From assembly GCF_020181595.1 (NCBI RefSeq), contig NZ_CP084028.1:315749-379748 (forward strand): DNA of 64,000 nt, written 5' to 3'. Made by a program: the position numbers and the translations under genes. Shown in pieces: positions 47,151 through 53,210 of the stretch. The notes under the pieces were generated by a model. The model made no database searches. It saw nothing but the letters and a program-made list of their open reading frames with translations, and was not told the DNA's origin. Each line of letters opens with the position of its first letter. The first letter of the stretch is position 1. The stretch comes from [Mycobacterium] vasticus (GTDB lineage Bacteria > Actinomycetota > Actinomycetes > Mycobacteriales > Mycobacteriaceae).

Positions 47151-47603
47151 TCAGGAATGTTGGTCGGGTCGCGCCACCGGAACAACGGTCAGCAGTCCGT
47201 CCAGCCCGTGGAAGTCCTGCGGGTTGGTGGTGAACAGCGGCAGCTCTTCGGCGATCGCCACGGCGGCGATCATCAGATCGGCGACGCGCCGACGTGGTTT
47301 GCGTCCGGTGCCGATGACCGCGGCGCACACCCGGCCGTAGGACCGCGCGGCTTCGGTGGCGAAAGGGATTGGGTCGAACTCGTTTTCGGCACGCTGGAGC
47401 ACGTCGAGGCGGCGAGCGCGCTCGGCATATTCGTCGTATTGGCCTTGTTCACTGTTTCGGCGCACCTCGTGCGGTCCGACCGACAGTTCGGCGAGAGTTA
47501 TTGCGCTGATCGCCATCGTCTCCGGCAACTGCTGCGGATCGATCCACCGGCGCAGAATCATGATGTTGGTGTCGAGGAGGCCGTACTGATGATCAGCGGG
47601 CAT
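47151..47603 (-). CDS. VapC-family PIN-domain toxin
   Basis: A 150-aa PIN-domain ribonuclease. The acidic cluster is Asp in LLDTNIMI, Glu in LAELSVG, Asp in VADLMIAAVA, and the final Asn/Asp region LFTTNPQDFHGL. VapC toxins cut structured RNA such as initiator tRNA or rRNA. ATG 47603 overlaps the upstream antitoxin gene by 11 bp. Longer open frames upstream are antisense or inside the antitoxin and are rejected. The gene is convergent with MBL-CobU. Confidence 0.85.
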   Translation of the reverse strand: MPADHQYGLLDTNIMILRRWIDPQQLPETMAISAITLAELSVGPHEVRRNSEQGQYDEYAERARRLDVLQRAENEFDPIPFATEAARSYGRVCAAVIGTGRKPRRRVADLMIAAVAIAEELPLFTTNPQDFHGLDGLLTVVPVARPDQHS

Positions 47604-47862
47604 ACGGGTCGCTCGTCTCCTGATCGGCAGTGGCGCGCTGGTCGGCGCGGAAGGCATCAATCGAAATGTCCGGTGCACCACGCGACATCGCCGCGAACTC
47701 GGCGCGGGACACGAACCGCCTGCGCTGGCGCAGCGGAATCAGTTCACCGATCGGATGGCCGTCGCGGGTGACGGTGAACGCCTGCCCGTGCTGGACGGCG
47801 TCCATGATCTCCTTCGACCGGTTCCGTAGGTCGCGCTGGGTGATCTCAGACTGTGCCGGCAT
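47593..47862 (-). CDS. Phd-type antitoxin partner of the PIN toxin
   Basis: An 89-aa antitoxin: SEITQRDLRNRSKEIMDAVQHGQAFTVTRDGHPIGELIPL is the Phd/YefM DNA-binding pattern (ITQRDLRN...G..F.VTR.G.PIGEL). The acidic C-terminus (DISIDAFRADQRATADQETSDPYAR) binds the toxin. It directly precedes and overlaps vapC. Four GTGCTAC copies surround the promoter, including a 7-3-7 inverted pair about 32 bp before the start codon, which suggests autoregulation. Confidence 0.84.
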   Translation of the reverse strand: MPAQSEITQRDLRNRSKEIMDAVQHGQAFTVTRDGHPIGELIPLRQRRRFVSRAEFAAMSRGAPDISIDAFRADQRATADQETSDPYAR

Positions 47863-48768: not shown

Positions 48769-49197
48769 TTATGCGGCAACGATGCGGAGCTGGCGGAGTT
48801 CGGGAACGGCGCGCTGCAGAGTGAGGAAGTCGGTGTCGTTGTGCACCACCACCGCATTGTGTCGGAGGGCTGTTGCGGCGATCAGCACGCCGGTTGTCTG
48901 AGCGCCACGCCCGGCGCCGAGTTGCCACAGGGCGGTGCGGACGTCGGCGACGATCTGCTCGGCCGCTTCGTCAAAAGCGAGCCAGAAGAACTGCTTTCGG
49001 TACACATCGGTGAGGAACCCGAGGTCCTTCTTGCTGCGCGCGCTGAATCGGGCCTCGTCCATGGTGACCATGGAGGAACACAGGATGCCGGTACCGGCGA
49101 GCCGGTCGATCTCCGCCTTCATCACCGGAGACGACCAATAGTGCGACATGGCCGAATGGTCGACCAAGTAGTGGGGCCGCGCTGTTGGTGACGTCAC
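48769..49197 (-). CDS. VapC-family PIN-domain toxin
   Basis: A 142-aa PIN-domain toxin. YLVDHSAMSHYW gives the first Asp, then DEARFSARSKKD, the second acidic cluster FDEAAEQIVADV, and a late VVVHNDTDFL gives the last Asp. The pattern VDxSAxxxY is common for VapC of the mycobacterial PIN group. ATG 49197 overlaps the antitoxin stop by four bases. It is followed by the FDOR gene pair on the same strand. Target RNA unknown. Confidence 0.83.
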   Translation of the reverse strand: MTSPTARPHYLVDHSAMSHYWSSPVMKAEIDRLAGTGILCSSMVTMDEARFSARSKKDLGFLTDVYRKQFFWLAFDEAAEQIVADVRTALWQLGAGRGAQTTGVLIAATALRHNAVVVHNDTDFLTLQRAVPELRQLRIVAA

Positions 49198-49468: not shown

Positions 49469-52400
49469 TCAGCCGCCGGTGCCGCCGGCCCCGCCGGGCA
49501 GGCCAGCAGCGCCGCCGCCACCGCCGCCGCCACCACCGAGGATGGCGCCCGCGCCGCCGGTACCACCGCCATCGGAGCCGCTGCCGCCGTCGCTGCCGGT
49601 GCCGCCGGAAGGGCTGCCGCCGCCACCGCCACCACCGGAGACGGGTCCGCCGGAGCCACCTCCGCCGCCTTGGTAGCCGGATCCGCCGGCGCCACCAGTG
49701 GTGCCGCCACCGCCGGCGCCGCCGCCACCACCACCGCCGCCGGGGTTATCGCCGCCTTCGGATTCCCCGGGACCGCCGCTGCTACCGGTGGCGGCGCCAC
49801 CGCCACCGGTGCCGCCGACGCCGGCGATACCGCTGCCGCTCCCGCCGCCACCACCGCCGCCGTTGACGCCGTTGCCCTGGCCACCAGAACCGCCAGCGGC
49901 AAAGCCGCCGCCGCCGTCGCCGCCATCACCGCCGAGGCCGTCGTGCCCGCTGCCGTGACCCAAGCCGCCGCCACCACCTCCGCCACCACCACCGCATGCG
50001 GCTGCCATGCCGCATGAGCCGCCGTCGCCGCCGTCACCTCCGTCGCCGCCGCTGCCTGAGGTCCCGCCATTGCCGCCCGATCCCCCTGCTCCGCCGGCTG
50101 CGCCCTGACTGGTGGCGTCGAAACCGTTGCCGCCGTCCCCGCCATTGCCGACCGGGCCGGTGAAGCTGCTGCTGCCGGGGCCTCCTTGTGTGCCGGCGTT
50201 ACCACCGGTGCCCGACGTGCCGGCCGTGCCTGCGTTGCCGCCGTGACCGACACTGCCCGGGTTGCCGCCCTTGCCGCCGTTGCCGCCGTTGATGTGGGTC
50301 GCGTCTCCGTTTGCGCCGTTGCCGCCGTTGCCGGGTGTGCCTGCCGCGCCGCCGTCACCGCCGTCACCGCCGTTGCCGTTGGTGCCGACGTCGCCTGCAA
50401 CCGCACTGCCGCCGTTGCCTCCGTGGCCTCCCGCGCCGCCCGTTCCGCCATTGCCGCCGTCTTCGCCGTCGCCACCGTTGGCGCCTGCGACGTAGGTGGT
50501 GGCGGTGGCGGCGTCGAAGCCGTCGTTTCCGGTCGCACCGGCGCCGCCGTCACCGCCCTGCCCGCCGGTACCGCCGTCACCGCCGTTGCCGGAGATCGAA
50601 CCCCCGGCGCCGCCGGCGCCGCCGGAGCCGCCATCGCTGCCGTCGACATTCATGTCGACATAGCCGACCGGGGCTTGGGTGGCATCGAAGCCACCGCCCC
50701 CGTTGCCCCCGTTGCCGCCGTCGCCGACCCGCCCGGCGTCACCGCCGGCGCCCCCGCTGCCGCCGTTGACGCCCGACGTGGCGGAGTCGGAGCCGTTGCC
50801 GCCGTCACCGCCGTCACCGCCGCCGCCGGGTCCGGTATCGGCCGCGGTCAGGCCGGAGGCCGCCCGGGTGCCGCCACCGCTGTCGCCGCCCAGACCGCCG
50901 GTCCCGCCGGCGCCGGGGTCACCGCCGTCGCCACCCTTGCCGCCGTTGCCCGACAGGTAACCGGGCCCGCCGTCGCCGCCGCGGCCGCCGTCACCGGCCG
51001 CGCCGCCCAGTGCACCGTCCCCACCTGAACCGCCGCCGCCGTGCGCGCCGTCGTGGAAGCCGGCGGCCGATGCCTGACCCCCGGCGCCGCCGTCACCGCC
51101 GAGGCCCCCGGCTCCGCCACCGCCGCCATTGCCGCCTGTGCCGCCGTTGCCGCCGGTGCCGCTGGGGTCATCCTGGGTGCCGAAACCGCCGAGGCCACCG
51201 TTGCCGCCGTCGCCACCGTTGGCGCCACTGCCACCGGCTGCCCCCAGGCCGCCGTGCCCGCCGGCGCCGCCGTTGCCCGCCAGAGCGCCACCGGCCCCGC
51301 CGGCCCCGCCTGCGCCGCCGTTGCCGCCGGCCTGTCCGGCCGCGCCGACTCCGCCGGTGCCGCCGTTCCCGCCATTGCCGCCGTCGCCGCTGAAACCGGG
51401 CGGGACGTTGTCGCCGCCTTCACCGCCGTTGCCGCCGTTCGCGCCGGTGCCGCCGGTTCCACCGTTGCCGCCGTTGCCGCCGACGCTGCCGGGGGCCCCG
51501 GCCCCGGTACCGCCGTGGCCGCCGTCGCCGCCGGGAGCGCCCGCGCCGCCGTCGCCGCCGTTGCCACCGGCGCCTCCGGTGCCGGCGATGTTGATGCCGA
51601 GGGTCACCCCGCCGTAGCCGCCGTTGCCGCCGGGCGCCCCGGGACCGCCGTTGCCGCCATCGCCACCGCTCGCACCGACGGTGGGCGGCGCGTCGGGGAA
51701 ACTGCGGCCCGCGTTGCCTCCGGTGCCGCCGGCCTGGCCGGCTGTGGTGCCGGGGTCGCCGTTGCCGCCGGGGGTGCCGATGCCGTGGGTGTTTTGGTGC
51801 CCGTCGCTGCCGTTGGCCGCCGGCGCGACGGGGGTTACCGGGACGGGGTTGACGGCGTTGGCGCCTGTGATGCCGTTGCCGCCGTTGCCGCCTGTTCCGC
51901 CGTTGCCGACCAGTCCGGCGTTTCCGCCGTTGCCGCCCTTGCCGCCGGAGGCTCCGGCGGTGGTGGGGGTGTAGCCGGCCCCGCCGTTTCCGCCGTTTCC
52001 GCCGCTGATGGGGGTGGCGCCGGCTGTGCCGGTGGCCCCGGTGGTGGCGCCGTGTCCGGGTGTGCCGGCTGCGCCGCCGGTGCCGGGGTTGCCGCCCTTG
52101 CCGCCGGCGCCGCCGTCGAGGGTGGTGGCGTCACCGCCTGCGCCGTTGCCGCCGTTTCCGGGTGTGCCGCCGGCTCCGCCATCACCGGCATCACCGCCGG
52201 TGCCGGTGGCTCCGGTGGCGCCGAACAGGCCGCCGCGGCCGCCGTTGCCGGCATTGCCGCCGTTTCCGCCGTTGCCTCCGTTTCCGCCGTTGCCGCCGTT
52301 GCCGCCGGCGGTTCCGGCGATGGTGGCGTTGAGGCCGCCGCTGCCGTTTCCGCCGTTGCCGCCCGTGCCTCCGGTCCCGCCGGTTCCTCCGGTGCCGCCG

Positions 52401-53137
52401 GAGCCGATCAGCCAGCCGGCGGCGCCCCCGAGGCCGCCGCTGCCGCCGGTCCCGCCGGTGGCCCCGGTGGCGCCGTCGGCACCGTTGCCGCCGTCGGCAC
52501 CTGTGCCGCCGGCGCCACCGGCACCGCCGTTGCCGAACAGCCAGCCGGTGGCGTCGCCGCCGGCTCCACCGTTGGCGCCCGTTCCGGCGGCCCCACCGTT
52601 GCCGGCGATGCCGAAGGCGGTGTCGCCGCCGGCCCCGCCGTCGGCGCCGGCACCGCCGCTGCCGCCGTCGCCGCCGTCACCGAAGTAGGCTGCGCCGCCG
52701 TTGCCCCCGGCCTCCCCGACGACGGTGCTGTCCCAGCCGGCGCCGCCGTCACCGAACCACAGCCCGCCCGCACCGCCGTTGGGATCGGCGGCGGTGCCGG
52801 CGTCACCGTTGCCGATCAACAGATCGGTGCCCAACAGCGGTGCCAGGTATTGGTTGATGGCGGCATCGACCTGGGAACCGAAGGCGCTGGCGATCCAGTC
52901 CTGCCCGGCGTCGTGGATCGGGTCGTAGATCCACTGGTCGAACAGTGCTGCCCAGTCGGTGAGATCGCCGGAGGCCGGTGCGGCACCCACCGTCAGGGCC
53001 TGCCACGCCGAGGGATCGAAAAGGTCTTCGATCCAGGCGAAGTCATCGGCATGGGCGGCGGGAGCCATCCCGAATGCCAAGAACGCGCTCACCGCGCTAC
53101 AAGCACCCACCACCCGAACGCGACGATGACCAGACAT
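49469..53137 (-). CDS. PGRS-repeat protein with a Sec signal peptide (no PE domain)
   Basis: A 1222-aa glycine-rich protein. MSGHRRVRVVGACSAVSAFLAFGMAPAAHADDFAW is a basic, hydrophobic Sec signal peptide with AHA-D cleavage. A nonrepetitive region (to about 105) ends in LLIGNGDAGTAADPNGGAGGLWFGDGG, which resembles the LIGNG linker that normally joins a PE domain to a PGRS domain. Then come more than 1000 residues of GGxGGx repeats (GGNGGNGG, GGAGG, GDGG) with few hydrophobic islands. No PE domain is present, so export by ESX-5 is not implied. ATG 53137 has GGGGAGGT six bases upstream. The function is unknown; a calcium-binding or surface role is only by analogy with PE_PGRS proteins. Confidence 0.82.
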   Translation of the reverse strand: MSGHRRVRVVGACSAVSAFLAFGMAPAAHADDFAWIEDLFDPSAWQALTVGAAPASGDLTDWAALFDQWIYDPIHDAGQDWIASAFGSQVDAAINQYLAPLLGTDLLIGNGDAGTAADPNGGAGGLWFGDGGAGWDSTVVGEAGGNGGAAYFGDGGDGGSGGAGADGGAGGDTAFGIAGNGGAAGTGANGGAGGDATGWLFGNGGAGGAGGTGADGGNGADGATGATGGTGGSGGLGGAAGWLIGSGGTGGTGGTGGTGGNGGNGSGGLNATIAGTAGGNGGNGGNGGNGGNGGNAGNGGRGGLFGATGATGTGGDAGDGGAGGTPGNGGNGAGGDATTLDGGAGGKGGNPGTGGAAGTPGHGATTGATGTAGATPISGGNGGNGGAGYTPTTAGASGGKGGNGGNAGLVGNGGTGGNGGNGITGANAVNPVPVTPVAPAANGSDGHQNTHGIGTPGGNGDPGTTAGQAGGTGGNAGRSFPDAPPTVGASGGDGGNGGPGAPGGNGGYGGVTLGINIAGTGGAGGNGGDGGAGAPGGDGGHGGTGAGAPGSVGGNGGNGGTGGTGANGGNGGEGGDNVPPGFSGDGGNGGNGGTGGVGAAGQAGGNGGAGGAGGAGGALAGNGGAGGHGGLGAAGGSGANGGDGGNGGLGGFGTQDDPSGTGGNGGTGGNGGGGGAGGLGGDGGAGGQASAAGFHDGAHGGGGSGGDGALGGAAGDGGRGGDGGPGYLSGNGGKGGDGGDPGAGGTGGLGGDSGGGTRAASGLTAADTGPGGGGDGGDGGNGSDSATSGVNGGSGGAGGDAGRVGDGGNGGNGGGGFDATQAPVGYVDMNVDGSDGGSGGAGGAGGSISGNGGDGGTGGQGGDGGAGATGNDGFDAATATTYVAGANGGDGEDGGNGGTGGAGGHGGNGGSAVAGDVGTNGNGGDGGDGGAAGTPGNGGNGANGDATHINGGNGGKGGNPGSVGHGGNAGTAGTSGTGGNAGTQGGPGSSSFTGPVGNGGDGGNGFDATSQGAAGGAGGSGGNGGTSGSGGDGGDGGDGGSCGMAAACGGGGGGGGGGLGHGSGHDGLGGDGGDGGGGFAAGGSGGQGNGVNGGGGGGGSGSGIAGVGGTGGGGAATGSSGGPGESEGGDNPGGGGGGGGAGGGGTTGGAGGSGYQGGGGGSGGPVSGGGGGGGSPSGGTGSDGGSGSDGGGTGGAGAILGGGGGGGGGAAGLPGGAGGTGG

Positions 53138-53210
53138 GTCGACCTCCCCGGTGAACCCAACCAAACCCCAAGTTCACTCAGCTTGCGCTCAGCACGACCC
53201 GACCAGCCCC

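Follow-up and report, generated by a model that had tools for sequence, protein, structure and literature searches.

The PE_PGRS proteins of pathogenic mycobacteria are numerous and poorly understood, and reviews tie them to the PE domain, to the ESX-5 secretion system and to virulence. According to the accessible part of PMC6819658, PE and PPE proteins have no classical signal peptide, and the PGRS repeat was placed, in the accessible part of PMC1660551, as a recent event within the slow growers, with M. terrae and M. nonchromogenicum counted as slow there. PGRS proteins with questionable N-termini were reported in M. smegmatis (excerpts of PMC11939664), for PE_PGRS11 a linker of unusual length and a substitution in the GRPLI motif were described (excerpts of PMC7550000), and, depending on the species, the LipY domain follows PE, PPE or a signal peptide (same excerpts), or PE or PPE (excerpts of PMC7028111). 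Here we analyse a PGRS protein encoded in a 64,000-nucleotide stretch of [Mycobacterium] vasticus (NCBI RefSeq assembly GCF_020181595.1, contig NZ_CP084028.1, positions 315,749 to 379,748 of the forward strand; hereafter the window), in which a Sec-type signal peptide takes the place of PE. In the best overall explanation, in which we have good confidence, this protein belongs to a large family of PGRS proteins that are exported by Sec, and PGRS is a portable scaffold of the envelope, exported by whichever route the preceding N-terminus dictates. No account of a Sec-type PGRS family, or of a swap between signal peptide and PE for PGRS, was found in the literature searched, which covered few subscription papers.

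The PGRS protein of the window and its predicted export signal

The gene lies at 49469..53137 on the minus strand, running from an ATG at 53137 to a stop codon at 49471-49469, and its reading frame encodes 1222 amino acids; an earlier note on this DNA had given the coordinates correctly and left the strand unstated. A probable ribosome-binding site, GGGGAGG, ends 5 bases before the ATG (53143..53149, minus strand). The protein opens with MSGHRRVRVVGACSAVSAFLAFGMAPAAHA and continues, after a predicted cut between residues 30 and 31, with DDFAWIEDLFDPSAW. By a simple hydropathy and AxA rule, residues 1-30 (53048..53137) have the basic n-region, hydrophobic core and AxA cleavage site (AHA/D) of a Sec signal peptide, and the Pfam PE model (PF00934) finds no match in the protein, which bears out the earlier reading of a classic signal peptide in place of PE. 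Residues 31-61 (52955..53047) form the mature N-terminus and lead to a helical module (WAALFDQWIYDPIHDAGQDWI...INQ..., residues 62-107, 52817..52954; helices predicted at 62-83, 85-97 and 99-102), a cap with the first repeats (IGNG...GGAGGLWFGDGG, residues 108-173, 52619..52816) and the PGRS repeat domain (residues 113-1222, 49472..52801, all on the minus strand), whose 1110 residues are 49% glycine and make up nearly the whole mature part. The Pfam PGRS family, PF21526, matches residues 108-173, at the start of the repeat, with 37.9 bits against a curated cut-off of 27, and NCBIfam assigns no family to the protein. No repeats are seen in residues 31-111, which end in DLLIGNG (105-111), and so the roughly 80 unique residues, the LIGNG-type linker and the glycine repeat of more than 1000 residues had all been described accurately. 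The linker holds LIGNG (in GTDLLIGNG) but not the GRP of the PE_PGRS linker motif GRPLI; some Sec relatives (L015, L072 and L196) carry GRDLI or GRALI at this site.

Export of the PGRS repeat through Sec is well supported for the window protein, judging by its sequence. The cleavable signal peptide would take the chain through SecYEG, and signal peptidase would cut at AHA/D. The same simple hydropathy rule, restricted to the first 100 residues of a frame, was positive in 119 of 130 related proteins of the Mycolicibacter type, in 25 of 32 of the Mycolicibacterium type and in 12 of 13 from other genera, as well as in 3 of 25 PE proteins.

Other accounts of this gene and its export were weighed against the same data. 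It is scarcely credible that the frame is a low-complexity artefact, a chance opening in GC-rich repeat DNA and no real gene: spurious long frames are present on the opposite strand, but the curated PGRS match and the ribosome site contradict this account, the module recurs in 31 open reading frames of the same genome, and the N-domain is conserved, with few replacements relative to L071, its ortholog in M. heraklionensis (of the 82 codons compared, 59 are identical, 11 differ synonymously and 12 are replacements). The artefact account was set aside. A true start inside the repeat region is likewise unlikely, because of the ribosome site and the conserved N-terminus. Upstream, the nearest in-frame stop leaves 12 codons before the ATG, which excludes the in-frame PE domain that the earlier note had considered as a way to be wrong, and the sole longer start possible is a TTG at 53164. 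That the protein is still an ESX substrate with an incidental hydrophobic stretch at its N-terminus is highly improbable; the genome does hold an EccB5 gene, but the protein lacks PE, and the cleavage-site residues A30 and D31 do not vary across 30 aligned sequences. The ESX motif YxxxD/E is absent from the first 130 residues of the window protein and present in 23 of 25 PE proteins, against 27 of 130 proteins of the Mycolicibacter type, 5 of 32 of the Mycolicibacterium type and 0 of 13 from other genera. Passage of a folded repeat through twin-arginine translocation (Tat) instead of Sec would fit the long, arginine-rich n-regions of some members and the frequent RR pairs there. We consider it very unlikely, as a PGRS domain of more than 1000 residues folded in the cytoplasm would make a poor Tat cargo, and the strict motif [ST]RRx[FLIVM][LIVMF] occurs in none of the 29 signals of this genome, even with 45 upstream residues included (a loose form occurs in 3 of the 29); the lack of the strict motif is why Tat export was set aside.

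Structure prediction modelled residues 115-224 as a polyproline/polyglycine-II bundle, with a mean predicted local distance difference test score (pLDDT) above 90 for the blocks covering residues 111-190, and in this prediction residues 115-224 form a bundle of polyproline-II helices as in the published polyglycine-II sandwich model of PGRS. No PDB entry matches the N-terminal 127 residues in sequence, and Foldseek found no counterpart for a model of the module by itself (mean pLDDT 70), which is not proof of a new fold. The mature protein would begin with a short helical module, which runs into the first strands of the repeat and probably caps them. Going by our model and the published one, the glycine repeat of about 1100 residues would take up a polyglycine-II fold once outside the membrane and lodge in or on the envelope.

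Distribution of PGRS proteins without PE

The window genome most likely groups with Mycolicibacter (the M. terrae clade), and its closest named records, in a comparison from which entries of the genome itself may be missing, are Mycolicibacter. A search of this genome (a single contig of 4.55 Mb) with residues 1-127 returned 47 matches at E<=10, some frames being counted twice. Within the stretches fetched, the module was found (E<=1e-4) in 31 open reading frames, 29 of them with a signal-like stretch ahead of it, and beyond these 31, L025, L033, L035 and L036 combine a signal with a divergent N-domain. The window module scores 105.4 bits against a model whose 18 rows include the window sequence itself. 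The genome further holds 27 PF21526 matches, 25 of them over the cut-off, and 17 PE matches. In four Mycolicibacter genomes (that of the window, MYC098, MYC340 and MYC123), none of the 136 PGRS matches listed (of 138 in all) has a PE domain on its own strand in the 48 kb upstream of it; M. icosiumassiliensis, the fourth named genome in the domain searches, stands outside this count. The window protein is therefore not the lone exception it had been taken for, and PGRS without PE is the rule in the four Mycolicibacter genomes checked. This holds beside an ESX-5 system, which is indicated by an EccB scoring 765 bits to EccB5 versus 259 to EccB3; a second EccB is nearest EccB3 (622 bits), and a third, left unassigned, is nearest EccB5 at just 288 bits. 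A fourth EccB match (G000:C1:3410024-3411019) consists of two pieces of one 378-residue frame with a gap in the model between them, and looks truncated.

The Mycolicibacter architecture is signal, module and PGRS, sometimes with an extra C-terminal domain, such as a GH5 glycosidase (L015, L023 and L024), an aspartyl peptidase-like domain (L021) or an NHL match (L020). The minus strand of L015 carries three adjacent genes with signal and module, PGRS and GH5 being present in the one scanned, and proteins similar to those of L015 are labelled endoglycosylceramidase in one source. At L035:1386-2621, a signal peptide precedes an aspartyl peptidase-like domain (PE-PGRS_C) in a frame that lacks both PE and PGRS, a possible Sec counterpart of PecA. 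A second kind of N-terminus (GKHS...AGPIATAGLASVALAGAGVMLLLGPDSPTMRSVTADV), common to the module-PGRS proteins L058, L059, L060 and L215, may be an uncleaved anchor.

In Mycolicibacterium and Gordonia, too, the module (YxPxH...W...IN...IGNG) stands between N-termini of the signal type and PGRS. The Mycolicibacterium-type architecture places a Pro/Ala-rich stretch between the signal-type N-terminus and the module, and the loci scanned, which are cut at their ends, contained GH5 in 5 of 7 and PE in none of 7. Proteins with module, PGRS and GH5 but no PE were found in Mycolicibacterium sphagni, mucogenicum and setense (P0056, P0069 and P0107), with the signal stretch as deposited, and in Mycolicibacterium farcinogenes (P0066), deposited with a start further in. 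The deposited starts of P0055, P0060 and P0066 fall inside or after the signal stretch, and public records can hide a signal peptide in this way. One fast-grower protein, P0080, is named 'PGRS repeat-containing protein' by NCBI, and so PGRS without PE is known to annotators. PE-PGRS_C domains stand behind both kinds of N-terminus (L021 and L035; P0083, P0086 and P0109).

PGRS without PE occurs in four genera of the family outside Mycobacterium. Gordonia (L196 is G. alkaliphila) has forms with the module and cap-only forms, and the three remaining genera have the cap only, in the loci seen. PF21526 exceeded its cut-off in 9 of 10 other-genus genomes, picked for a module match, and never in a PE frame; in an order-wide sample it was found in 33 of 397 genomes and 2 of 85 genera. 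The wide searches of genus, family and order scored 13-14 candidates per genome, making copy numbers lower bounds and some misses perhaps false, and the genus-wide match count includes PE_PGRS, since the query held the cap. Protein searches gave 111 proteins, of which 99 score above 20 bits for the helical part; the 8 that have PE all fall outside these 99. One such search under-represents pure-repeat members, GH5 being present on 74 of its 75 matches. Eight PE matches lie in short open reading frames (96-162 residues) of other genera (G568, G453, G429, G596 and G555), and an E. coli control also scores for PF00934.

The shared module and the origin of PE_PGRS

Nine distinct hybrids, from eight genomes, combine PE, module and PGRS. 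Pfam found PE and PGRS in all five of those examined and His_Phos_1 in four, the exception being L154, a short frame. A hidden Markov model of the helical part, trained on 136 sequences that lack PE and from which cap and repeats had been cut, scored 39-53 bits on the nine hybrids and 23-32 bits on three degenerate PE forms of G203; of 5600 shuffled controls, 4055 scored at all, with a maximum of 7.4. The module is homologous across the Sec and PE forms. A profile of module plus IGNG gave 19 matches in 9 of 11 PE_PGRS-bearing genomes, which had been picked for many PE_PGRS genes and not at random (in two of them, 150 of 152 and 150 of 172 candidates were scored), and all 19 lay on PE proteins, some of which fit the published account of PE_PGRS11. 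The occurrence of PGRS without PE, together with a module found behind both kinds of N-terminus, strongly supports the earlier proposal that the repeat moves independently of PE. At L206 (G203:C1:6052300-6067000), three PE_PGRS genes within about 13 kb carry a degenerate module (e.g. GDPLE for YGPVH), between full and absent.

A tree of 107 rows and 115 columns was rooted with cap-only proteins of other genera. Its rows were taken from 193 deduplicated sequences (45 of 124 of the Mycolicibacter type, 24 of 31 of the Mycolicibacterium type and all of the other groups), after frames that ran off a locus, held X or scored low had been dropped. The nine PE hybrids group with Gordonia L196 and L203 and Mycolicibacter L072 and L132 (Shimodaira-Hasegawa approximate likelihood ratio test, SH-aLRT, 95), and the classical and degenerate PE forms cluster elsewhere (SH-aLRT 92), the Sec/PE label needing 2 changes on the rooted tree. 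A single PE clade was not rejected (p 0.41), so that two separate captures are not shown, and a clade of Mycobacterium only was rejected (p 0.021), which makes old paralogs or transfer with Gordonia likely.

The earlier note had left it between ancestor and parallel route for the surface PGRS proteins. Distribution and tree favour the former, and the Sec form is probably the older, with PE captured once or twice; the direction is drawn from these two sources, and the short tree, its deep forks and the patchiness of the family keep this part of the proposal provisional. Sec signals would serve PGRS in Mycolicibacter, in the Mycolicibacterium type and in Gordonia, and PE would direct it to ESX-5 in the PE_PGRS-bearing slow growers. 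We incline, if only slightly, towards a fuller scenario in which PGRS began, in a forebear common to Mycobacterium and Gordonia, as the glycine-rich scaffold of envelope proteins exported by Sec (perhaps a GH5 glycosidase), and in which the PE_PGRS-bearing slow growers fused PE to the module on one or two occasions. Proteins of the PE_PGRS11 type would have kept the module and classical PE_PGRS only its end, the GRPLI linker, and Mycolicibacter would represent an alternative outcome, a large PGRS repertoire without PE_PGRS despite ESX-5. The reverse order, in which PGRS arose on PE proteins and Mycolicibacter, the Mycolicibacterium type and Gordonia gained the repeat later, swapping PE for Sec signals, agrees with the view in the accessible part of PMC1660551 and with the patchy family and open deep forks. 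It is nevertheless rather unlikely, given that the Sec form occurs in several lineages, including other genera, that the module is complete in most Sec forms and, among PE forms, complete in some and degenerate or absent in others, and that only 2 Sec/PE changes are needed on a tree rooted with cap-only proteins of other genera.

Several points weigh against the overall explanation, including an early Sec form. The family is patchy, with no match in 183 of 297 genus genomes and 359 of 401 family genomes (few candidates being scored in each), and a Sec-first history therefore needs many losses or transfers. Gordonia sequences (L194, L196 and L203) lie among mycobacterial ones, and transfer could mimic age; the tree is short, at 115 columns, and leaves its deep forks open. 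The helical-part model gave no significant match on 13 classical PE_PGRS linkers (at most 4.6 bits, and none at all on three), so the attempt to match these linkers to the helical module failed and their descent from it would rest on the hybrids. To these are added the non-random choice of the 11 PE_PGRS-bearing genomes, the home-made rule by which signal peptides were judged, and the genome labels (fast grower, PE_PGRS-bearing slow grower), which we inferred.

Elsewhere in the window, two short minus-strand open reading frames, at 48769-49197, directly downstream of the PGRS gene, and at 47151-47681, look by eye like PIN-type toxin genes.

Comparison with described systems

If true, the display of PGRS through Sec in Mycolicibacter, Mycolicibacterium and Gordonia would mean that what the repeat does is distinct from ESX-5 and virulence, and would provide harmless laboratory species for studying it. 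A Sec-PGRS family could also account for the long PE_PGRS11 linker and the doubtful N-termini of the M. smegmatis proteins, and makes the origin of PE_PGRS testable. The glycine-rich antifreeze proteins of springtails and snow fleas (7jjv and 2pne) show no sign of shared descent with PGRS, and glycine-rich bundles can converge. LipY resembles PGRS in being one domain with alternative N-termini for export, though it is a lipase and not a repeat, and the available excerpts of PMC7550000 and PMC7028111 mention no multiplication into dozens of copies.

The PGRS proteins of Mycolicibacterium smegmatis and its relatives are fast-grower PGRS as well, the M. smegmatis genes being compared here by description only (excerpts of PMC11939664). 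The PE_PGRS11 type joins PE, a long linker, GRDLI, a short PGRS and a phosphoglycerate mutase, and its long linker would equal the helical module. The hybrids L155, L158, L160 and L166 are like it in carrying PE, module, PGRS and His_Phos_1, and from the published description of PE_PGRS11 (excerpts of PMC7550000), rather than a direct comparison, we infer that the hybrids are its orthologs; unlike Sec-PGRS, this type has PE in front and is expected to be exported by ESX-5. With the PE_PGRS proteins of slow growers in general, the Sec-PGRS proteins share the same Pfam PGRS family, the LIGNG cap, the published polyglycine-II fold and some C-terminal domains (PE-PGRS_C), and they differ in having a signal peptide and a helical module where PE_PGRS proteins have PE and a short GRPLI linker.

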